A DNA stretch of 29,180 bases from a virus: the IMG/VR virus record IMGVR_UViG_3300047562_004445, positions 1-29,180 of that record; one strand, given 5' to 3'. Numbering within the stretch: the first letter of the stretch is position 1; each line of letters begins with the position of its first letter. This document shows positions 2,302-24,657 of this stretch, in pieces. The notes below the pieces were generated by a model, which was given only the letters and a program-made list of their open reading frames with translations, ran no database searches and was not told where the DNA came from. The position numbers and the translations under genes are program-made.

Positions 2302-2894
2302 AATTGGATCCACATAATTGTTATAAAACTTACCTTTCACTTAAGAATCATTTCACAAAAGATCATTATGATTACCATAGACATAGTGGTAAAGTAAAAG
2401 CATCTATTGAAAGTTTCTATAAGCGCAAGGATCGTTTTTGGTTTGAAAAATTAAGTCGCAATAAAACAGATAATGAAATCATAAATTTTTTTGTTGCAAA
2501 TTTTGTTACATGTAATGATCCTCAATCATTGTGGATCGGTGAAATTATTAAAGAAGGAGAGGAAAGATATCAATTTTGGATGAAAAAAATACAATCTCTG
2601 TCTTACATTTTTAAGGAAGAGATTGTAAATTGCTTTGATTCTAAAAATTTTGATGAATTGTTTATAATTGAAGGTAGTAAACATCCACGATTATTAAAGG
2701 AACATCTTCAGAATAATATATCTTTAGAAAGTATGATAATATTAGATCGTATATTATCGTATAAAAATGATTTTGATAAAAAATTGCATGATCCTGTTTG
2801 GGAGTTTGTATCTAAAAGAATGTGTAAATATTCTGCATTCCTACATACAGATGTATTTAAATTTAAAAAAATTTTAAAGGAGTGTGTATTATGA
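2298..2894 (+). CDS. 59: gp59, loader of gp41 DNA helicase
   Basis: The 198-residue protein is close in size to T4 gp59 (217) and shares its pattern: CYKTYLSLKNHF near the start, KRKDRFWFEKLSR, FFVANFVT then WIGEI, and NNISLESMIILDRILS in the C-terminal half, matching T4 QSNIISFETFILLDSFL. gp59 binds replication forks and gp32-coated DNA and loads the gp41 helicase. The start is TTG, overlapping the gene 33 stop as TTGA. The stop forms ATGA with the next gene's ATG, so genes 33, 59 and the next gene look translationally coupled. Gene 32, the partner of gp59, lies one gene downstream. Confidence 0.85.
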   Translation: MKLDPHNCYKTYLSLKNHFTKDHYDYHRHSGKVKASIESFYKRKDRFWFEKLSRNKTDNEIINFFVANFVTCNDPQSLWIGEIIKEGEERYQFWMKKIQSLSYIFKEEIVNCFDSKNFDELFIIEGSKHPRLLKEHLQNNISLESMIILDRILSYKNDFDKKLHDPVWEFVSKRMCKYSAFLHTDVFKFKKILKECVL

Positions 2895-3232
2895 GTTTCT
2901 TTGATTCTGAAGTTGTTCGTTCAGAAATAGCAGAAATTTCTGAACTTCAGGAAGATCTTTATAAAAATGTTTTTAAATTTCCTACAATGTCTGATAATGA
3001 AAAAATTTCTCATATAGACTTGATGCAAAAACTTTTAAATAAACAACAAGTTCTTTATACTCGATTAAGTTTATCAGATGATCCTGAAGCAATTGAGATG
3101 AAAAATAGAATAGTTCAATCTGTTAGTATGACTGGACTACCAACAAATGTAGATGTTAATGTAATTTTTAACAACATGTCAAAACTTATCAGCACGATGC
3201 GTGAAAGTATTGACAACACCAAAGATTCCTGA
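2891..3232 (+). CDS. DUF1825-like protein between genes 59 and 32
   Basis: The protein (113 residues from ATG 2891) begins MSFFDSEVVRSEIAEI and continues with an LMQKLLNKQQVLYTRLSLSDD segment. From memory this resembles the cyanobacterial DUF1825 family, which starts MGFFDSEIVQ and has a helical EQM...RYRIFMKRFELSED segment. Function is unknown. The start at 2891 is supported by AAAGGAG (2876-2882) 8 bases upstream and by the ATGA overlap with gene 59. Placement between the helicase loader and the ssDNA-binding protein suggests a replication or transcription role, but that is inference. The gene 32 promoter -35 box lies within its 3' end. Confidence 0.65.
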   Translation: MSFFDSEVVRSEIAEISELQEDLYKNVFKFPTMSDNEKISHIDLMQKLLNKQQVLYTRLSLSDDPEAIEMKNRIVQSVSMTGLPTNVDVNVIFNNMSKLISTMRESIDNTKDS

Positions 3233-7771: not shown

Positions 7772-8647
7772 ATGGCATCTGCTATAAAGAAAGAAATAAT
7801 AAGTAGTATAAAAAATAAACTACTTAGACCTTCTTTAACGTCACATTATTTGTGTAACTTTTCTCCTCCAAGTAACTTAACTGAAAAAAATCCAGGAAAT
7901 GGATTTTTTTTAGGTAGAGGAATAAATGTCTTAGATAAAAATAAAATGTATGATAGACTTTCTTTAGGATGTTGTGAGGCTTCTTTGCCTGGTTCATCAC
8001 TTGCTACTCTTGATATTAATAATGACTATCATGGAGTAACTCAGAAACATGCTTATAGGAGATTATATGATGATAGAGCAGATTTCACTTTTTATGTTGA
8101 TGGTTCAGAATATTATGTAATTCACTTTTTTGAGGCTTGGATTTCGTATTGTATCAATGAACAGCGTTCAGATGACAGAATAAAAAGACATCAAGATTAT
8201 ACATATAGGGTAAATTTTCCTGACACCTATTATGCAAATGAAATGAGTATTGTTAAATTTGAAAGAGATTATATAGATTCATCTAGAAGTTCTACAATCC
8301 AATATAATTTTGTTGGAGCATTTCCAATTAGCATTAGTTCTATGCCAGTTTCATATGATCAATCTAATTTATTAAAATGTACAGTTTCTTTTTCATATCA
8401 AAGATATTATCTAGATAAATTTATAAATTCTCAATCATATACTCCTAAAAATCCAAATGCAACTGGTGTTTCTGAATTAAATAATAAACCTGCAAGTAAA
8501 TCTTCTAATGGTACTCAAGTAGCATCTTCTGTATCACAAAGTGGTAGTGAACAATTACCACAAAGACAGATTGCTAATCAAAATATTTTAAATAATAGAG
8601 CATTTGTAAGAACATCAATATATACTGATGGTGGAATAGTAAGATAA
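7772..8647 (+). CDS. 54: gp54-like baseplate tail-tube initiator
   Basis: The 291-residue protein (T4 gp54: 320) has the beta-rich tail-tube fold pattern: RLSLGCCEASLPGSSLATLD, YRRLYDDRADFTFYVDG, HFFEAWISYCIN, then QYNFVGAFPISISSMPVSYD and LKCTVSFSYQRYYLD. The paired LPG segment and the SFSYQRYY strand are typical of gp19/gp48/gp54 relatives. In T4, gp54 binds gp48 and starts tube and sheath polymerisation. The C-terminal ~70 residues are low-complexity, rich in Asn, Ser and Gln. The ATG is separated by 29 bases from the divergent gene 4 start. No strong Shine-Dalgarno is seen upstream. Confidence 0.8.
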   Translation: MASAIKKEIISSIKNKLLRPSLTSHYLCNFSPPSNLTEKNPGNGFFLGRGINVLDKNKMYDRLSLGCCEASLPGSSLATLDINNDYHGVTQKHAYRRLYDDRADFTFYVDGSEYYVIHFFEAWISYCINEQRSDDRIKRHQDYTYRVNFPDTYYANEMSIVKFERDYIDSSRSSTIQYNFVGAFPISISSMPVSYDQSNLLKCTVSFSYQRYYLDKFINSQSYTPKNPNATGVSELNNKPASKSSNGTQVASSVSQSGSEQLPQRQIANQNILNNRAFVRTSIYTDGGIVR

Positions 8648-8681: not shown

Positions 8682-9398
8682 ATGCCTTTACCTAAGATTT
8701 CTACACCAACATATGAGTTGGAATTGCCATCTACAGGACAAAAAATTAAATACAGACCATTTTTAGTCAAGGAAGAAAAACTACTTCTTCTTGCATTAGA
8801 AACTGAAGATAATAAACAAATTACAAATGCAATTAAAACTGTAATTAAAAATTGCATTGAAACTAAGGGCATCAAAGTTGAGACTTTGCCCACATTTGAT
8901 ATTGAATTTTTATTCCTAAACATTCGTGCAAGATCTGTCGGGGAAGAAATTGAAGTTAATTTGATTTGCCCAGATGACAATGAAACAACAGTTCCTGTAA
9001 CAATTAATGTTGACGATATTAAAGTAGAAAAGAATAAGAATCATCACAAACAAATTAAACTTGATGATTCACTTATGATGGATATGAAATATCCTTCTTT
9101 AGATCAGTTCATTAAAAATAACTTCGATCTAAATGGAAATACAATGGAACAATCATTTGAACTAATTGCAGATTGTATTGATAAAATTTACTCAGAAGAA
9201 GAAGTTTGGTCTTCATCTGATGTGACTCGTGAAGAGATGGTTGATTTTCTTGAGCAAATGAACTCACTTCAGTTTAAACAAATTGAAGAATTCTTTGAAA
9301 CCATGCCAAAACTTTCTCATAAAGTTAAAATTAAAAATCCAAAAACTAAAGTTGAAAGTGAAGTTGTTCTTGAAGGATTATCAAGTTTTTTCGGATAG
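8682..9398 (+). CDS. 26: gp26-like baseplate hub or tail assembly chaperone protein (0-frame form)
   Basis: The 238-residue protein (T4 gp26: 208) begins MPLPKISTPTYELELPSTG. It has a conserved KYRPFLVKEEKLLLLALET segment followed by TFDIEFLFLNIRARSVGE and EVNLICPDD, as in T4-like gp26 proteins. The C-terminus is helical and acidic. T4 gp26 is needed for hub assembly; the position upstream of the tape-measure-like genes equals that of tail assembly chaperones in other phages. The frame ends SSFFG with TAG at 9396-9398, but a slippery heptamer lies just before the stop and the -1 frame continues for 61 codons, so a longer product is likely also made. Confidence 0.8.
   Translation: MPLPKISTPTYELELPSTGQKIKYRPFLVKEEKLLLLALETEDNKQITNAIKTVIKNCIETKGIKVETLPTFDIEFLFLNIRARSVGEEIEVNLICPDDNETTVPVTINVDDIKVEKNKNHHKQIKLDDSLMMDMKYPSLDQFIKNNFDLNGNTMEQSFELIADCIDKIYSEEEVWSSSDVTREEMVDFLEQMNSLQFKQIEEFFETMPKLSHKVKIKNPKTKVESEVVLEGLSSFFG
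9386..9392 (+). other. Candidate -1 programmed ribosomal frameshift site T TTT TTC
   Basis: In the gene 26 frame the codons read AGT TTT TTC GGA TAG. The seven bases T TTT TTC are a canonical X-XXY-YYZ slippery heptamer. Slipping back one base keeps perfect pairing in the P site and continues with CGG ATA GGT. The -1 frame is closed by TGA at 9371-9373 and the 0 frame by TAG at 9396-9398, so the heptamer lies exactly in the short usable overlap. AAGGA (9373-9377) upstream could act as an internal Shine-Dalgarno stimulator. A weak 5-pair hairpin (9398-9402 with 9412-9416) begins 5 bases downstream. Confidence 0.72.
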
Positions 9399-9577
9399 GT
9401 CTTTCTCATATAGATCTTGAAAATTACTTTCGATTAAATTTTTCTTTGATGCAATATCATAAATACTCTTTGACAGAGATTGAAAATATGATGCCTTTTG
9501 AGAGAGACATCTATGTTGCTTTATTACAACAGCATTTAGAAGAAGAAAAACTTAAGCAACAGCAAAATGGCGGATAA
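9392..9577 (+). CDS. -1 frame extension of gp26 (gpGT-like domain), 61 codons
   Basis: After the slip the product gains 61 residues, giving about 298 in all. The extension reads RIGLSHIDLENYFRLNFSLM, then a segment with SLTEIENMMPFERDIYVALL, and a charged tail ending KQQQNGG. An E-x-x-x-M-P-x-x-E-R-x-x-Y motif of this kind is typical of small downstream ORFs beside tail chaperones. No start codon with a ribosome-binding site precedes it: ATG 9449 and ATG 9488/9491 lack one, and each would give only a fragment. In T4 a separate gene 51 lies in this neighbourhood; equivalence is inference. It overlaps the next gene by 11 bases. Confidence 0.65.
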   Translation, partial: RIGLSHIDLENYFRLNFSLMQYHKYSLTEIENMMPFERDIYVALLQQHLEEEKLKQQQNGG

Positions 9578-11873
9578 ACTAGACCGAGAACAAATTGATG
9601 AAAGAGTTTTGAGGCTTCTTGGTCTAGAAGATGTCTTTGATTTAGATCCTGATGAATATCTTCAATTAATTCGTGAAAAAATTGAAGCAGAAAAAAATAG
9701 GTTATCGCAGGAAGATTTAGCAAGACTTGCAAATGAAAGAAAGAGAGTAAGAGCAGAACAGAGATCATCTAAGAAACCAAATCTTTCAAAAGCACAATCA
9801 GCAATAAAGTTTCTAAAACCATCAAAAGTAACAGGTTCCCAGCAAGTTGAATTTCTTAAAACTGAAGATCTAGATAAATCTGAAAATATTATTGGTATTG
9901 TTACAACAATAAAAAAAACAGTTGATAGTATATACAAGACACTTGTTATACAAAGTAAGTTATTTGAAAACATAAATGAACAGTCTAGAAGAGAAAGAGA
10001 GTACAATAGAAGAAGAAAAAGAGAAGAAGACCTTGAGAAAAAAGATACGGGATTAATTGCAGTTGCAAAAAAAATATTAGAACCATTTCAAAGTATCTTT
10101 GATAGAATTTTTAAATTTTTATTCTTTACATTATTAGGAAGAGCATTTGTAAAATTTACTGAATGGGCATCAGATCCAGAAAACAAAAAGAAACTTGAAG
10201 TACTTGGTAGATTTTTAAAAGACTTTTTTCCTGCTTTAGTAGGAACATACTTTCTATTTGGCACATCGTTAGGTAGGTTTGTAAGATCTATTGTAGGAAC
10301 AGTAGCAAAACTTAGTTTCCATCTTGCTAGATTTGCGATTCCAAAACTCCTAAGTTTTGTAAGGGCACATCCATTATTGGCAATTGGTGCTACTGCAGGA
10401 CTAGCAACTCTTGGTGCCTCAATGTGGGGAGGAAAAGAAAAAGAGAATTTGATGCAACAGGAGTCTGAAAAAACTGGTAAACCTAAAGAGCAAATCAAGA
10501 CTGAAGTAGAATCTGCAAAGAGAAGTCCATTTGCAATGTTTGGTGAAGGCCTGTCAAATATTACTGGATACAAAAGGGGAGGAGAAATATTCAGTGGACT
10601 AGTTGGAAATGATAGTGGTATAAAAGTATCTGGTTATGGGAAAGATACTCAATACTTTCCAATTGCAGGAACTGATGAGGGTGCTGTATTATATCCTGGT
10701 GAACTTGTTGTAAATGCCCAACAGCGAGAAAAAATTGCCGCAGACACTGGTGTTGATGTTGCAGATTATGTTCCTGGTCCTAAATCTGGAAAGGTTAAGA
10801 AGTATGCATCTGGTGGAATGATTGGTATTGCTGCGCATCATTTAAAGCAAGATGAAGCACTATCATCATTAACAAAAGGTGTAAATGATTATGTAAAACC
10901 TGGAGGAAAGAGTATTCGTAGTGGAACACCATGGAGTAATATTACAAAAAGTACTCCAATTCATTCTTATATTGATAGTGTTGGTCAAGCAACTATTGGA
11001 TGGGGATCAACTTTTTATGATAATATTTTAAATGGTAAAAAACCTGTAAGACCGGGTGATACTATTACAAAATCAAAAGCAGATGATGTATTGTCAACTA
11101 ATCTTTTAAACTTAGCAAAGGAATATTCACAAAAAATTCCTTTATGGAATAATATGTCAGATAAGCAAAAGGCAGGAGTTCTTATTGTTGGATATAATGC
11201 ACCATATGGTCCTATTGGATCTTATCCAAAATTAACTGAGTCACTTAAAACTGGAAATATGATTTCTGCTGCTTCTAATGTTACTAGAGGTGGTCCAAGT
11301 CCATCTAGACTTGCACTTGAAAAAAGTTTATTAATGAGTGGTCCATCAAACTTAAGTTCAATTAAAAAACCACAATCTTATACTCAACCTAAAACAGAAA
11401 CAAAAGATAAAGGAATTTTATCTAAATTAAGATCCTTTTTGCCATTCGAAGGTGGTGGTTTTCCAGTAAAAGAAAACACTGGAATGGATATTCCAGGAGC
11501 AACTGCTGATAGACAACTTGTTTCTATGAGATTACATCCTGGCGAATATGCAAAAATATTTACAAAGGATTTTGTAGATAAAGGAGGAATGAAGATCGTT
11601 GAATATCTTCAAGCACTTTTAGATTCAGATTCTAATGCAAGAAAAGATGGTGTATTATCAAATTCATCTTTAAATAGATATATTCCTGAACCACCTTCCA
11701 AAAATAAAAGTGGATCTAATATGATTACATTACCACCACAAATTATTTCTGGGGGAAGTGGTCAATCATATAATTCTAAAGGAAATAATGGAGTTCCAAA
11801 TTTTAGTGCAATTCCTAGTTCTGCATTAGAAACTCGTCAAAATCTAGCAGACATTTACGGTATTCTAGGATAA
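9567..11873 (+). CDS. Tape-measure or hub-like structural protein with a GH24 lysozyme-like domain
   Basis: The 768-residue protein has a charged helical N-terminus (about 1-170), a membrane-like hydrophobic region (RIFKFLFFTLLGR near 180 and further stretches to about 290), then tape-measure-type glycine segments with two PGE motifs (GAVLYPGELVVN near 375; SMRLHPGEY near 655). Between about 420 and 590 is a GH24-like region: SYIDSVGQATIGWGS (Asp470, Thr476) and PGDTITKSKADDVL. Without gaps, Lys461 stands where the catalytic Glu is expected, so activity is doubtful. Position between gene 26 and the gp27-like gene fits T4 gene 29 (tape measure/hub). It shares the FLFFT-LG segment with the next protein. 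Confidence 0.65.
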   Translation: MADKLDREQIDERVLRLLGLEDVFDLDPDEYLQLIREKIEAEKNRLSQEDLARLANERKRVRAEQRSSKKPNLSKAQSAIKFLKPSKVTGSQQVEFLKTEDLDKSENIIGIVTTIKKTVDSIYKTLVIQSKLFENINEQSRREREYNRRRKREEDLEKKDTGLIAVAKKILEPFQSIFDRIFKFLFFTLLGRAFVKFTEWASDPENKKKLEVLGRFLKDFFPALVGTYFLFGTSLGRFVRSIVGTVAKLSFHLARFAIPKLLSFVRAHPLLAIGATAGLATLGASMWGGKEKENLMQQESEKTGKPKEQIKTEVESAKRSPFAMFGEGLSNITGYKRGGEIFSGLVGNDSGIKVSGYGKDTQYFPIAGTDEGAVLYPGELVVNAQQREKIAADTGVDVADYVPGPKSGKVKKYASGGMIGIAAHHLKQDEALSSLTKGVNDYVKPGGKSIRSGTPWSNITKSTPIHSYIDSVGQATIGWGSTFYDNILNGKKPVRPGDTITKSKADDVLSTNLLNLAKEYSQKIPLWNNMSDKQKAGVLIVGYNAPYGPIGSYPKLTESLKTGNMISAASNVTRGGPSPSRLALEKSLLMSGPSNLSSIKKPQSYTQPKTETKDKGILSKLRSFLPFEGGGFPVKENTGMDIPGATADRQLVSMRLHPGEYAKIFTKDFVDKGGMKIVEYLQALLDSDSNARKDGVLSNSSLNRYIPEPPSKNKSGSNMITLPPQIISGGSGQSYNSKGNNGVPNFSAIPSSALETRQNLADIYGILG

Positions 11874-11877
11874 GACT

Positions 11878-14769
11878 ATGGCAATTAATAGAAATTTATT
11901 GTTACCATCAGCATCATCCTCAAGTGCAATAGTTAAGAAGACCTTTAATGCTTCTGCATTAGCATCTATTAAAACTAATAAAAAAGAATTAACACTTAGT
12001 CCCCAAAAGACATCATTAAAAGATTTACTATCATCTATTAATGAAACCGTAAAGAAAATTAATATTATAGTAAAGAAGACTACTTTATCTCAGAGTAAAG
12101 CATATAAAGACGGTCTTAAAGAAGCAAGACTTGCAAGAAATGCTGAAAGAGAAAGAAAACTCGAAGAAAAAAAGAAAGATAAACCCAAAGAAAAAGAAGA
12201 AAAAAAAATACCAGGATTAGGATTTCTTGATAGAATTAAAAGATTTTTATTCTTTACATTCTTGGGATGGTTAACAAATAAGTATTGGGATAAACTTCCA
12301 CAAGTATTAGAGTTTACGAAGAAGTTAACTCCAATCATTGATGTCATCGAAACTATTGGTGGAGCATTATTTAATGGAGTGGTTAATTTTATTGATACTG
12401 GTTATAAAGTTTATGATGGTCTTAGAGACTTTACAAAACAAATTGGTGGGGAAGATTTTCAAAAGAAATTTGATGACTTTAGTAAAAATCTTAATACCTT
12501 TATTAACATTGCCATTATTGCTGGTATGGCAACGATGGGTGGTACTGATTTTGGTTCTAGAGGTGGTCGTCGTGGTGGTCCTGGTGGTGGAAAACCTGGA
12601 AGGGGTGGTTATAGAAATGGAGTTCGCACGGGGCAATATAATGGATTTAATACACGCACTACTCGTAGTGGAAATCTTTTAAGTAGGACTGGAGATGCAT
12701 TACGCGCCCAAAGAGGAGATTGGAGTACCTCTGGTTATATAAAGAGTGAAAAAGATATAATGAAAAGATACTTCCAGAAACATGGAAGGGATGCTGCTAT
12801 TCGTAGATTTGGTCAGGAGGGAGTCGAATCTTTAGGTGGTAAGTATGCTAGATCTGGAGTCACTAATCTTGCTAGAAAAGGTGCAGTTAGTCTTCTTGGA
12901 AAAGGTGGCACAAAAGCAGCACTAAGAATAGTACAACCACTAGTTAGAAATATACCACTAATTGGTGGTATTATGGAATTTGTTCTTTCTTGGATGTCTG
13001 GTGACTCTCCAGGAAAGGCAGCATTTAAAGGTGTTGGTGCAGGACTTGGAACATGGGTTGGTGGTGCAATTGGATCTTTGATTCCTATTCCTGGTGTAGG
13101 AACTGCTATTGGTATGTGGTTAGGTAGTCAAGGTGGATCTGCATTAGGTGAAGCACTGTATAATAAGATCTTTGAAAATAGAGAACCGGGTCAAAAGAAA
13201 TTAGATCAACCAAAGAAAAAAGCAAGAGGTGGCGTAACCAGAGGTGGTAAAAAAGTTGCTGAGAATATTGGTAGATCATTAAAAATACAAAGAACTATTA
13301 AAAGGAATTTAATCTCACCTAAACCAAATAAAATAATTCCAGGTGTTGATGTTGGTGGTGAAAATAAAATAAAATCAATGTTTCCTGAACCATCTATGCA
13401 ACAAAGTGGTTTATATCAAAATCCATTTGGATTTTTATATAATAGTACCAATTCTATGGGAGATGTTCCCTACATTGGACCATTATTTTCTTTATTTGGA
13501 AAATTGCTACTTGGACAATCACCTAAAAGTTCAGATTATAAAATTATAAGTCTTGGGTTAACCGCATGGATTAATAATGCAATAACTGATAATTTGTTAA
13601 ACGGAAATAATATAGAAAAAATGATAAAAGAAATGCCAATATGGATGGAATCATCTATTAAAAAATTGGTAGATGGTGTAACAATTGATGTATTAAATCA
13701 ATTAAAAGAATACTTGTTATTGAAACCATTAAGAGAAATGTTTTCATCATCACAATTATCTGGATCTGAAGCAGGAGAATTGGGTTCTGCAAGTGATGCT
13801 GTTGGTGGTGCAAGATTGTTTATGGCAGCGGGTTTCCCAATGCTTGCTGCAGCTATTCTTTCTGGAAATGTTCAGCAAGAATCTGGATGGAAAGGTCAAA
13901 GAACTCCTTGGGTTTTAAATGATGGTGCAGGAACTAATAAAGGATTGATAAGTTGGAATAGAACTAGAATCACAAACGCTGAGAAATTTTTAGGTAAACC
14001 ACTAGAAACTGCAAGTAATGCAGAGCAAGTTAAATGGATTAAAGAAGAATTAAGACAATATGGGTTGCTTGATGATTTTATGAATCCTCAAGCAACAGAA
14101 GCGCAACTTCAAGAAGCATCATACAAATATATTGGTTGGGGACACCTTGGTAAAAGATGGGATTACTCAAAACAAATTTTTTCTGCACTTCAAAAAGGTG
14201 AGCAAGGAACTTATTCCCCAGGTGTTAATATAAGATTGGGTTCAAATAATGATGCTGCACTAGGATCTAAACTTGCTGGAGAACTTGGAGATTTTATGAA
14301 ACAATGGGGAGGAGTTCCCGGTGATGTGCATAGACATCCAAAACATCTACCTTGGGATCCAAATCGTGGACATTCACCAGGATCTTTGCATTACCAGGCA
14401 CAAGGTGCCAGAGCTATTGATTTGGGATCTTGGGCAAATGAACAAGGACCTATACTTAAAAAAATAGAAGAATTTAATAGATTAAAGGGAGTTTCACCAG
14501 TTCAACTTTTACATGCAGGAAATGATCCAACTGGAAATCATGATAACCATGTTCATGTTGCTTATAAAGATGGTGGAATGATTGGTCCTAATAAACCAAG
14601 AAATATAAAACCACTTCAAGAATCAGCATCATATGATGAAGGATATATGATCTTAATTCAACCAGTTATTATCGAAAAACCAGTACCAGCTATGGATAAT
14701 AAGATTAATTTTTCTGGTGGTGGTAGTGTAAATATTAATAAGGACAAGTCATCTCTATTCATAAGGTAA
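11878..14769 (+). CDS. Large tape-measure or hub-like protein with lysozyme-like and M15-peptidase-like domains
   Basis: This 963-residue protein has a charged coiled N-terminus with KEK repeats (near 80-115), FLDRIKRFLFFTFLGW (near 117-132) shared with its upstream neighbour, an RGG/glycine-rich segment (near 222-256), and glycine-rich hydrophobic helices (near 350-430). Near 655-790 is a phage-tail-lysozyme-like region: SGNVQQESGW (Glu668), GLISWNRTR and KYIGWGHLGKRWDY. The C-terminal part has a zinc-peptidase-like set: SLHYQAQGARAIDLG (His838, Asp848) and NHDNHVHVAY (His891, His893), as in D-Ala-D-Ala peptidases of the M15/VanY type. It probably combines tail-core structure with cell-wall opening. 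The stop overlaps the next ATG (TAATG). Confidence 0.65.
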   Translation: MAINRNLLLPSASSSSAIVKKTFNASALASIKTNKKELTLSPQKTSLKDLLSSINETVKKINIIVKKTTLSQSKAYKDGLKEARLARNAERERKLEEKKKDKPKEKEEKKIPGLGFLDRIKRFLFFTFLGWLTNKYWDKLPQVLEFTKKLTPIIDVIETIGGALFNGVVNFIDTGYKVYDGLRDFTKQIGGEDFQKKFDDFSKNLNTFINIAIIAGMATMGGTDFGSRGGRRGGPGGGKPGRGGYRNGVRTGQYNGFNTRTTRSGNLLSRTGDALRAQRGDWSTSGYIKSEKDIMKRYFQKHGRDAAIRRFGQEGVESLGGKYARSGVTNLARKGAVSLLGKGGTKAALRIVQPLVRNIPLIGGIMEFVLSWMSGDSPGKAAFKGVGAGLGTWVGGAIGSLIPIPGVGTAIGMWLGSQGGSALGEALYNKIFENREPGQKKLDQPKKKARGGVTRGGKKVAENIGRSLKIQRTIKRNLISPKPNKIIPGVDVGGENKIKSMFPEPSMQQSGLYQNPFGFLYNSTNSMGDVPYIGPLFSLFGKLLLGQSPKSSDYKIISLGLTAWINNAITDNLLNGNNIEKMIKEMPIWMESSIKKLVDGVTIDVLNQLKEYLLLKPLREMFSSSQLSGSEAGELGSASDAVGGARLFMAAGFPMLAAAILSGNVQQESGWKGQRTPWVLNDGAGTNKGLISWNRTRITNAEKFLGKPLETASNAEQVKWIKEELRQYGLLDDFMNPQATEAQLQEASYKYIGWGHLGKRWDYSKQIFSALQKGEQGTYSPGVNIRLGSNNDAALGSKLAGELGDFMKQWGGVPGDVHRHPKHLPWDPNRGHSPGSLHYQAQGARAIDLGSWANEQGPILKKIEEFNRLKGVSPVQLLHAGNDPTGNHDNHVHVAYKDGGMIGPNKPRNIKPLQESASYDEGYMILIQPVIIEKPVPAMDNKINFSGGGSVNINKDKSSLFIR

Positions 14770-19546: not shown

Positions 19547-20254
19547 ATGGATTTAAATACAGACGTAAAAGTTGGAAAAAGACTTCAATGTGGTTCGGGT
19601 AGACCTCCATTAATGGGTCTTGGTACTACAGAAGTTAATGGATTTGCTTCACTTGAAGGACCTGCTCAAATAGGTGCTGATTCAGAATTTGCAATTCCTG
19701 CTATTGATGGAGAAACTGGAGGACCCCCATGTGGGTCTGCAACTTTGATGGTTGGTAGAACTGCAAATAAAGATGTTTTAAGAAATCCTTTATTTGGTGG
19801 AGCACCTTTTTATTCATTATTAGTAAAAACTTATGCTAGAATTAAAAGTTTTTTGAAAGTTGATGTTTTATTGACGGTTAAACTTTTAAAAGCAAAGATT
19901 ATTTACACAGAAGTTCTTATGGCAAAGTCTAAGAACTTTGTCATAGATCATCCTTCACAACCAAATAAGAAGTTAGTACATGCTTGCTTAGAGGGTCCAG
20001 AACATGCAGTATATGTAAGAGGTCGTATAACTAATAAAACAATAATTGAGTTACCTTATTATTGGAAAGATCTTATAGATGAATCTACAATTACAGTTCA
20101 ATTGCAACCAATTGGAGCACATCAAAATATTATTATCAAAAGAATTGGTCAAAATGAGATACATTTACAAGGACAAGGGATACCAATAGATTGTTTTTAT
20201 CATGTTTATGCAGAGAGAAAAGATATAGATCATTTAGAAGTGGAGATTGATTGA
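19547..20254 (+). CDS. Virion-associated protein with a C-terminal fibre-type domain (copy 1)
   Basis: The N-terminal ~85 residues are glycine-rich (RLQCGSGRPPLMGLGTTEVN, GGPPCGSATLMVGR), with no motif I recognise. From about residue 125 the protein has FVIDHPSQPNKKLVHACLEG, PEHAVYVRGRI, IIELPYYWKDLIDESTITVQ and a final CFYHVYAERKDIDHL. This HP-x-P...LEGPE..VY-RG...LP-YW domain is shared with the next gene and, from memory, with many phage and cyanobacterial fibre-like proteins, where it often sits at the C-terminus. It is probably a tail or baseplate appendage. No clear ribosome-binding site precedes ATG 19547; the gap from the spike gene is 3 bases. Confidence 0.6.
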   Translation: MDLNTDVKVGKRLQCGSGRPPLMGLGTTEVNGFASLEGPAQIGADSEFAIPAIDGETGGPPCGSATLMVGRTANKDVLRNPLFGGAPFYSLLVKTYARIKSFLKVDVLLTVKLLKAKIIYTEVLMAKSKNFVIDHPSQPNKKLVHACLEGPEHAVYVRGRITNKTIIELPYYWKDLIDESTITVQLQPIGAHQNIIIKRIGQNEIHLQGQGIPIDCFYHVYAERKDIDHLEVEID

Positions 20255-21084
20255 TGGCACCATTTAAATTTAGACACTATGGAACCTTTACAGGACCAAT
20301 TTCTCTAACTGGTGACTGGATTTATGATAGTGTTTCATTGGAAGGATCTTGGCAAACAGATTTTCCAATTGATACCTCATTTAAGTTAACAGATGTTGCT
20401 GTAGTTTTTTATAATAATGAATTTGACTACATGGGGTATCATTTATATGGATTTAATACAAATATTGCAGTATTAGAAAAAAATACGGGTCCTTTAGCTT
20501 TATTACTAGCAAATGTATCAAATACAATATTTAATGGAAATACAATTGCAAATGGTAATGTAATTACAAATGGCAATGTAGTTGCTAATGGAAATATAGT
20601 TTCTAATGGGGTATTAAATTGTACAGGATCAGTTACTATTGCTGGTGTTGGTGAAATGGTTCAAGCAATTACTGAGGCAAAAGCATTGCCAGCAAAATCA
20701 TTTGATATTCCTCATCCATCAAAACCAAATACTCATAGACTTAGGCATGTAAGTTTAGAAGGACCAGAGATTGGAGTTTATTGTAGAGGTAAACTTGAAA
20801 ATGAAAGTATAATTAATATTCCAGAATACTGGTATGATTTAATTGATCCAGAGACAATTACTGTTAATTTGACACCATTTGGATCATATCAAGAGTTATT
20901 TGTAGAAAAAATTGAGTGGGGTAAAAAAATTATTGTAAAAAACAATTCAGGATCTTCTATAAATTGTTATTATACAATTTATGCAGAGAGAAAAGATCTT
21001 GATAAATTAATTGTAGAATATGAAGGAAAATCTATACAAGATTATCCTGGACAAGATTTCTTAGGCATTAAAAAGGAAGTTTAA
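20254..21084 (+). CDS. Virion-associated fibre-like protein with hexapeptide repeats (copy 2 of the C-terminal domain)
   Basis: From ATG 20254 the protein has 276 residues. GGAG (20242-20245) lies 8 bases upstream, and the ATG shares a base with the previous stop; TTG 20251 is less likely. A first domain ends in tandem NGN repeats (about residues 93-118) predicted to form a small beta-helix. The C-terminal domain repeats the plan of the upstream gene: FDIPHPSKPNTHRLRHVSLE, GPEIGVYCRGKLENESIINI, PEYWYDLIDPETITVNLTPF and CYYTIYAERKDLDKL. The two genes probably arose by duplication and may form one appendage. Confidence 0.62.
   Translation: MAPFKFRHYGTFTGPISLTGDWIYDSVSLEGSWQTDFPIDTSFKLTDVAVVFYNNEFDYMGYHLYGFNTNIAVLEKNTGPLALLLANVSNTIFNGNTIANGNVITNGNVVANGNIVSNGVLNCTGSVTIAGVGEMVQAITEAKALPAKSFDIPHPSKPNTHRLRHVSLEGPEIGVYCRGKLENESIINIPEYWYDLIDPETITVNLTPFGSYQELFVEKIEWGKKIIVKNNSGSSINCYYTIYAERKDLDKLIVEYEGKSIQDYPGQDFLGIKKEV
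20533..20610 (+). repeat. 18-bp tandem repeat, about 4.5 units, coding NGNxxx hexapeptides
   Basis: Units start at 20533, 20551, 20569, 20587 and 20605 (partial). Each begins AAT GGN AAT (Asn-Gly-Asn; the last lacks the third codon) followed by three variable codons for Thr, Ile, Val or Ala-type residues. The period matches one turn of a left-handed beta-helix or a trimeric fibre repeat. Confidence 0.8.
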
Positions 21085-24048: not shown

Positions 24049-24657
24049 ATGAAATCAGATTTTTACATAGATAAAGTAGGTAAAGAAGAAATCAAATATC
24101 TTCTTTATACCTATCATTATCTTAAAGACGAATCAAAAGATTTTAAATCTGGTTTCAATTATGGGCTTTTCAGATCCTCAGTTTCTGATATTCTTAGGGT
24201 TGGTGGGTGCTTGGGCACTTGTATCTTTACTGGTCTACCAGTCCCCGAAGTAGCAGTAGGTGCATTTGGATTGGAAAGAAACCAACAAGAAGGGATATAT
24301 GAACTCTCAAGACTTTGTATACATCCAGATATTCAAAAAGAAGAGTATAATATTACATCTTGGTTCGTTAGTCGTTGTATAAGGAGATTTAAGAAAGATG
24401 CCACAGTTCGTGCTATTCTTAGTTACGCTGACAATAATCACCACTCTGGAATTATATACAGAGCTTGCAATTTTCAATACTATGGTTTGACTGATCCAAA
24501 AAAAGATTTTTACTATGCTGATGGAACTAAACACTCAAGAGGTTCTGTAAAGGGTCAAAGGGGTGAATGGAGGGAAAGAAGTAGAAAACATAGATACCTA
24601 ATGATATTTGATAAAGAACTGAAAAAACACTTGACATGGAAGGAAGAAAAGTGGTAA
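24049..24657 (+). CDS. Mom-like GNAT-fold protein (putative DNA base modification)
   Basis: The 202-residue protein has an ELSRLCIHPDI segment (85-95), SWFVSRCIRRFKKD (104-117), then SYADNNHHSGIIYRACNFQY (125-144), and a basic C-terminus (GQRGEWRERSRKHRYLMIF). The SYAD...HxGxIYRAxNFxYxG motif is characteristic of the phage Mu Mom family, acetyltransferase-like proteins that modify adenine in phage DNA to block restriction. A general GNAT acetyltransferase is the alternative. It is the last coding gene of the island. Its last codons contain the -35 and much of the -10 of the promoter of the candidate small RNA. Confidence 0.62.
   Translation: MKSDFYIDKVGKEEIKYLLYTYHYLKDESKDFKSGFNYGLFRSSVSDILRVGGCLGTCIFTGLPVPEVAVGAFGLERNQQEGIYELSRLCIHPDIQKEEYNITSWFVSRCIRRFKKDATVRAILSYADNNHHSGIIYRACNFQYYGLTDPKKDFYYADGTKHSRGSVKGQRGEWRERSRKHRYLMIFDKELKKHLTWKEEKW

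Follow-up and report, generated by a model that had tools for sequence, protein, structure and literature searches.

A probable −1 frameshift gene for short and long tail-assembly chaperones in a T4-like phage, and its bearing on the annotated 'gp51'

The gp26 gene in the DNA analysed here, a stretch of 29,180 nucleotides from IMG/VR record IMGVR_UViG_3300047562_004445 (hereafter the window), is very probably a −1 frameshift gene of the gpG/gpGT type, which makes short and long tail-assembly chaperones. A programmed frameshift of this type had been proposed in an earlier note on the same DNA, and the proposal is supported by the conservation of the slippery heptamer, the purifying selection in the −1 frame, the loss of start codons, the in-frame fusion in T4 gp51 and the chaperone-like fold modelled for gp26. 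The window appears to originate from a T4-like cyanophage, judging from its relatives in the Kyanoviridae.

The features of the locus are summarized in Table 1. The earlier note had placed an in-phase slippery heptamer between a stop of the −1 frame and the stop of the 0 frame, followed by an extension that runs into the next gene, and direct reading of the sequence confirmed these positions to the base. The gp26 product ends in ..GLSSFFG*, encoded by the codons ..GAA GGA TTA TCA AGT TTT TTC GGA TAG, and the heptamer TTTTTTC has the phase X XXY YYZ, where frame 0 is parsed as AGT TTT TTC. The −1 frame is open from the TGA at 9371-9373 to the TAA at 9575-9577, which corresponds to FF and 61 residues, and its end overlaps the next gene, starting with ATG at 9567, by 11 bases. 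The predicted long product has 237 + 61 = 298 residues; base 9392 would be read twice, and the 61 residues added after the slip would be RIGLSHIDLENYFRLNFSLMQYHKYSLTEIENMMPFERDIYVALLQQHLEEEKLKQQQNGG.

Table 1. Features of the gp26 locus and neighbouring genes in the window (positions in nucleotides of the window).
Feature	Position	Strand	Basis or remark
Upstream gene, tail tube protein family	7772..8647	+	PF23849 E 8e-13; phrog_45 tail tube E 3e-33
gp26 / TAC-N, predicted short tail-assembly chaperone, 238 aa, 0 frame	8682..9398	+	PF12322 E 8e-78; phrog_150 E 6e-83; AF2 model vs 2ob9
−1-frame stop TGA, 5' limit of useful slip window	9371..9373	+	sequence
GAAGGA, Shine-Dalgarno-like candidate stimulator, 8 nt 5' of heptamer	9372..9377	+	anti-SD pairing peak, 147 loci
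Slippery heptamer T TTT TTC, putative slip to TTT TTT	9386..9392	+	in-phase TTTTTTN in 322/322 single-copy relatives
Weakly foldable 75-nt stretch from heptamer, MFE ~-7.6 kcal/mol	9386..9460	+	no single structure conserved; possible weak downstream stimulator
−1 extension after putative slip (TAC-C, 'gp51'), 61 residues RIGLSH...QQNGG + TAA	9392..9577	+	phrog_634; phrog_150 C-terminus; pN/pS 0.17; hhalign vs T4-type gp51
Frame 0 stop TAG	9396..9398	+	sequence
Downstream gene, phage lysozyme domain, first candidate tape-measure gene	9567..11873	+	PF00959 E 6e-7; phrog_35029
Second downstream gene, weak tape-measure matches	11878..14769	+	phrog_794 E 1e-7; phrog_9570 E 3e-7; tail length tape measure protein

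The layout of the gp26 heptamer exceeds the chance expectation. The 23 main genes of the window contain 100 in-phase XXXYYYZ heptamers, and three in-phase sites consist of TTTTTT followed by C or T; among all in-phase XXXYYYZ sites, a product that exceeds the gene by 20 aa or more results only from that of gp26 and from one in a helicase-loader gene. The helicase-loader gene (2298-2894) carries an in-phase TTTAAAG at 2873-2879 near its end, and a slip there would join it to the next gene (2882-3232), which lies in the −1 frame. An ordinary overlap is the likelier explanation at this junction because the second gene possesses a GTG/ATG of its own and a GGAG.

To determine the conservation of the heptamer, 80 close relatives were taken from IMG/VR, more distant sets were retrieved by searching with Syn10, a Vibrio phage, T4 gp51 and one phage each of Sinorhizobium and Pelagibacter, and genomes of isolates were added from GenBank. 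The 3' end of gp26 was readable in 322 single-copy loci, of which 147 were non-redundant after the removal of near-duplicates. An in-phase TTTTTTN near the stop, together with an open −1 frame, was found in all 322 loci, and the distance from the start of the heptamer to the end of the stop was 13 nt in 261 of them. The slip-site codons of the 147 non-redundant loci were NNT TTT TTC in 130, NNT TTT TTT in 16 and GAT TTT TTG in one. The first Phe codon was TTT without exception (147/147), compared to 73% elsewhere in the same genes, and the second was TTC in 130, compared to a background of 27%, while Phe-Phe pairs elsewhere in gp26 genes are encoded as TTT TTC in only 5 of 161 cases. From background codon usage, the chance of these choices is ~10^-20 for the first position and ~10^-54 for the second (130/146), where independence of loci that are in fact related is assumed, so that the values serve as a guide and not as p-values. 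The comparison of relatives that had been suggested for the heptamer and the −1-frame protein thus shows both conserved, with a nearly fixed synonymous choice of TTT TTC.

Outside the cyanophages, the heptamer is kept in Vibrio phages phi-Grn1 and D484, Aeromonas phages CC2 and Aswh_1, Cronobacter phage S13, Stenotrophomonas phage YB07 and Pelagibacter phage Mosig, and a TTTTTTT or TTTTTTG variant is present in Methylophilales phage Melnitz-3, Sinorhizobium phage phiN3 and Rhizobium phage Y68. In Mosig (locus L093, 1507-1540), unlike most relatives, the 0 frame runs about eight codons past the heptamer; the resulting heptamer-to-stop distance of 34 nt occurs in 22 loci of the set. Four Vibrio phages that keep a gp51-like −1 extension, 207E48.1, VAP7, D506 and Kuja, lack an XXXYYYZ heptamer at the junction of gp26 and the extension, where sites such as CTTTTTC, GTTTTTC and CTTTTCA are found instead; Kuja has no ATG near the junction. 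All of these except D506 are filed under Ackermannviridae, and the four phages may use another slip signal or a coupled start.

The same figures bear on two explanations that place the change of frame outside translation. Homopolymers such as the one at the junction are typical sites of error, and an indel introduced by sequencing or assembly into a single continuous gene, or the decay of a gene, would give a similar appearance; the recurrence of the layout in 322 loci and many complete genomes of isolates refutes this explanation for practical purposes. Transcriptional slippage, in which one base is inserted at the T run in some mRNAs, would shift the frame in the same way and yield the same fusion. 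A run of six T is short for slippage by the polymerase. In ~90% of the loci, a C follows directly on the sixth T, the X XXY YYZ phase, which is needed by tandem tRNA slippage and not by the polymerase, is kept without exception, and the Shine-Dalgarno-like element described below fits ribosomal slippage. Polymerase slippage is therefore considered to be very improbable.

The extension behaves as a real protein, as had been suspected in the earlier note, because purifying selection acts in the −1 frame only. Over the 49 codons past the 0-frame stop, pN/pS was 0.17 in the −1 frame, compared to 1.9 and 3.1 in the other two frames, and changes at the third positions of the −1 frame dominate (4446 versus 2129 and 968). 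Across the same 49 codons, none of 290 loci has a −1-frame stop, and each of them is interrupted by stops in both of the other frames. Conserved coding in the −1 frame, a feature of gpG/gpGT-type genes, is thereby present at this locus.

The earlier note regarded the extension as hidden, and this point did not hold, because many cyanophages annotate the region as a separate 'gp51 baseplate hub assembly catalyst'. The extension matches the phrog_634 profile of that name (cyanophage 'gp51') with an E-value of 1.6e-29 and also the last 53 positions of phrog_150, which first indicated that the extension is carried in frame by some members of the family; a Pfam search of the extension gave no real family. 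In GenBank, a separate gp51 follows the gp26 stop in the records of S-SM2, P-SSM2 and S-PM2, and no gene is listed over the extension in those of S-CAM1, ACG-2014b, Syn10, ACG-2014d and P-RSM1.

As in most database annotations, gp51 could be a separate small protein made by re-initiation after the gp26 stop, and in roughly half of the relatives codon 5, codon 8 or both codons of the extension, just 3' of the stop, are indeed ATG; this is where the gene is annotated in records such as those named above. In the window, these usual start positions are occupied by CTT and ATA, and the −1 frame contains no ATG, GTG or TTG before TTG 9446 and ATG 9449, which bears out the remark that the extension has no good start of its own. 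Initiation at either of these codons would remove the conserved residues H7, L10, N17 and F18 (0-based extension positions). A separate gp51 gene was therefore rejected for the window. Among the relatives, 136 of 319 loci have ATG as codon 5 and 180 of 319 have a codon for leucine there, an alternation that appears to be the pattern of a hydrophobic position inside a protein. An ATG is present at neither codon 5 nor codon 8 in 160 of 319 loci, and the first 11 extension codons contain no ATG in 88 of 145 non-redundant loci; since half of the phages, the window included, thus lack an ATG at both usual starts of gp51, the conserved part cannot arise there by separate initiation. Re-initiation also explains neither the fixed heptamer nor the in-frame fusion in T4 gp51, and as the general account of gp51 it is improbable. 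In relatives with an ATG just after the stop, which are about half of the set, a separately started gp51 may be made in addition. For the window, where a fixed heptamer is combined with the lack of a usable start, frameshifting appears to be the only simple reading of the sequence.

The arrangement in T4-type phages provides a further comparison. T4 gp26 and gp51 both match PF12322, and on the 282 positions of phrog_150, T4 gp26 ends at 235, whereas T4 gp51 reaches 280, through the extension. The extension profile aligns with positions 200-245 of T4-type gp51 with an hhalign probability of 90.5 and an E-value of 1.4e-6. T4 genes 26 and 51 thus share the family PF12322 and the C-terminal extension with the window gene; they differ from it in being two divergently transcribed genes, short and long, without the T6 heptamer. 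No TTTTTTN heptamer was found in the 11 T4-type two-copy genomes scored, and T4 gene 26 retains both Phe codons in the form TTC TTT, which is not slippery. One PF12322 match was found in each of 20 single-copy genomes or large contigs, and two or more in each of 10 T4-type genomes. In the one T4-type genome with three matches (IMGVR_UViG_2974754850_000001), gp51 appears to be broken into two pieces (125062-125666) by a sequencing error or a mutation. By these alignments, T4 gp26 and gp51 are two copies of one gene, where gp26 corresponds to the short form and gp51 to the long form, which includes the extension in frame.

In the tree, the T4-type gp26 and gp51 form a group with a support of 0.97 that adjoins the single-copy Vibrio, Cronobacter and Aeromonas phages, where the branches are long and RB43 gp26 is oddly placed. 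The simplest history would be that a frameshift gene was duplicated, after which one copy kept the short form and the other fused the long form. Within the window, which is a 29-kb fragment, one PF12322-like ORF with the heptamer is present rather than the T4-type pair, and complete frameshift relatives have one gp26-family copy. The suggestion that two genes kept separate in T4 may have become fused in this phage was thus not borne out; T4 26 and 51 are, by the sequence comparison, paralogues, and among the loci examined the state with a single frameshift gene is the more widespread.

The assignment of gp26 to a chaperone family is based on profile, fold and position. The protein belongs to PF12322 and phrog_150, with a PF12322 score of 261.5 bits (cut-off 24.5) over residues 9-237. 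Searches of the gp26 and T4-type gp51 profiles against PDB sequences gave weak hits only, unrelated to phage tails. The AF2 model of gp26 has a pLDDT of 87, and its top PDB matches are 2ob9 (Z 8.0), 3fgx (7.8) and 3klu (7.2), followed by a next row at 4.8; all three are named as tail assembly chaperones (PMC9603447). The match to 2ob9, the HK97 tail assembly chaperone, has an rmsd of 4.0 over 84 residues, where the Z of 8.0 is middling and concerns the N-terminal domain only. The fold search with the T4-type gp51 model returned no chaperone row, and its best match, to C1QBP/p32 with Z 4.9, was uninformative.

As shown in Table 1, the gene order is a tail tube family gene, gp26, the extension and then large genes, one of which has weak tape-measure matches, as the earlier note had recognized in placing the site upstream of tape-measure-like genes. 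The gene at 9567-11873 lies in between, and both it and that at 11878-14769 are candidates for the tape measure. The gp26 gene occupies the gpG/gpGT-type location between tail tube and tape-measure genes. The chaperone-like fold, taken together with this order, fits a gpG/gpGT-type chaperone. The gene directly 3' of the extension carries its PF00959 phage lysozyme domain within a large tape-measure-like protein. Elsewhere in the window, the adjacent genes at 19547-20254 and 20251-21084 are paralogues in tandem that belong to a single unnamed family (phrog_17490 / phrog_28536), and the gene at 24049-24657, which has tail genes on both sides, gives matches to profiles of Mom-like DNA modification and of HNH/homing endonucleases and is possibly a mobile insertion.

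Candidate stimulators of the slip were examined on both sides of the heptamer. Over the 147 loci, the anti-Shine-Dalgarno pairing energy shows a sharp peak ~15 to 8 nt 5' of the heptamer, with a mean of ~-6.5 kcal/mol, which is stronger than that of synonymous recodings (-6.54 versus -5.24, paired Wilcoxon p = 7e-13); no such excess was seen in a control stretch lying 150 nt upstream. A conserved Glu-Gly accounts for part of the peak, and the upstream Glu codon is GAG in 70 of 102 cases, compared to ~30% elsewhere. On the 3' side, RNA folding has a mean z of -1.5 relative to shuffles, compared to -0.44 in the control stretch. A universal downstream stem-loop or pseudoknot was rejected, as no structure is shared and the commonest predicted pairs occur in less than one quarter of the loci; the downstream fold of the window itself is weak. 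The upstream stretch may therefore stimulate the slip, as suggested by the pairing pattern. A wider proposal, to which we give about an even chance, is that in single-copy T4-like chaperone genes, those of cyanophages included, a selected Shine-Dalgarno-like element ~8-10 nt 5' of the heptamer (dnaX-style) and lineage-specific 3' hairpins stimulate the slip, and that the ratio of short to long form is tuned in cis by anti-Shine-Dalgarno pairing.

In the proposed mechanism, most ribosomes would stop at TAG 9396 and release the short form, TAC-N, of 238 aa. A minority, on decoding AGT TTT TTC, would slip back one base on T TTT TTC, where both Phe-tRNAs can re-pair with TTT TTT, and would then read the −1 frame to TAA 9575 to give TAC-NC, of 298 residues, the first 237 of which are shared with the short form and the remaining 61 added. 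In analogy to lambda gpG/gpGT, both forms may act as chaperones that coat and recruit the tape-measure protein in tail assembly.

T4 genes 26 and 51 are reportedly named in the abstract of the 2022 study by Vladimirov and co-workers, and frameshifting is said to be kept in several T4-like groups. Chaperone genes of this kind were identified in T4-like phages by Vladimirov, Gautam and Davidson (Virology 2022), according to the papers that cite that study: T4-like TAC-N genes are stated to bear poly-T −1 frameshift signals (PMC12846349), and some T4-like phages are stated to have two genes instead, one of them short and the other long and fused (PMC10885494). By these statements, the arrangement is the same as that of the window gene, and its kind had thus already been reported for T4-like phages in 2022. 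The window differs in being an uncultured relative without ATG at the two usual gp51 starts, as far as the cited statements describe the earlier cases. The conservation figures, the argument from the loss of ATG and the Shine-Dalgarno-like stretch 5' of the heptamer are added here. Compared to lambda gpG/gpGT, which the window gene resembles in arrangement, the heptamer is TTTTTTC instead of GGGAAAG, and a Shine-Dalgarno-like stimulator appears likely in the window gene. The TAC of Vandenendeviridae and Andersonviridae (Pseudomonas phage Adele), in the account given in PMC12846349, likewise uses a −1 frameshift and has a downstream ORF that is routinely annotated as a separate hypothetical gene, but these are other, non-T4-like phage families with the motif GTTTTT.

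In 2010, T4 gp51 was described as essential and of unknown function (PMC3004832). The 'gp51 baseplate hub assembly catalyst' of single-copy phages is most likely the frameshifted C-terminus of gp26, and the frameshift reading of gp26 would thus correct a common annotation in abundant marine phages.
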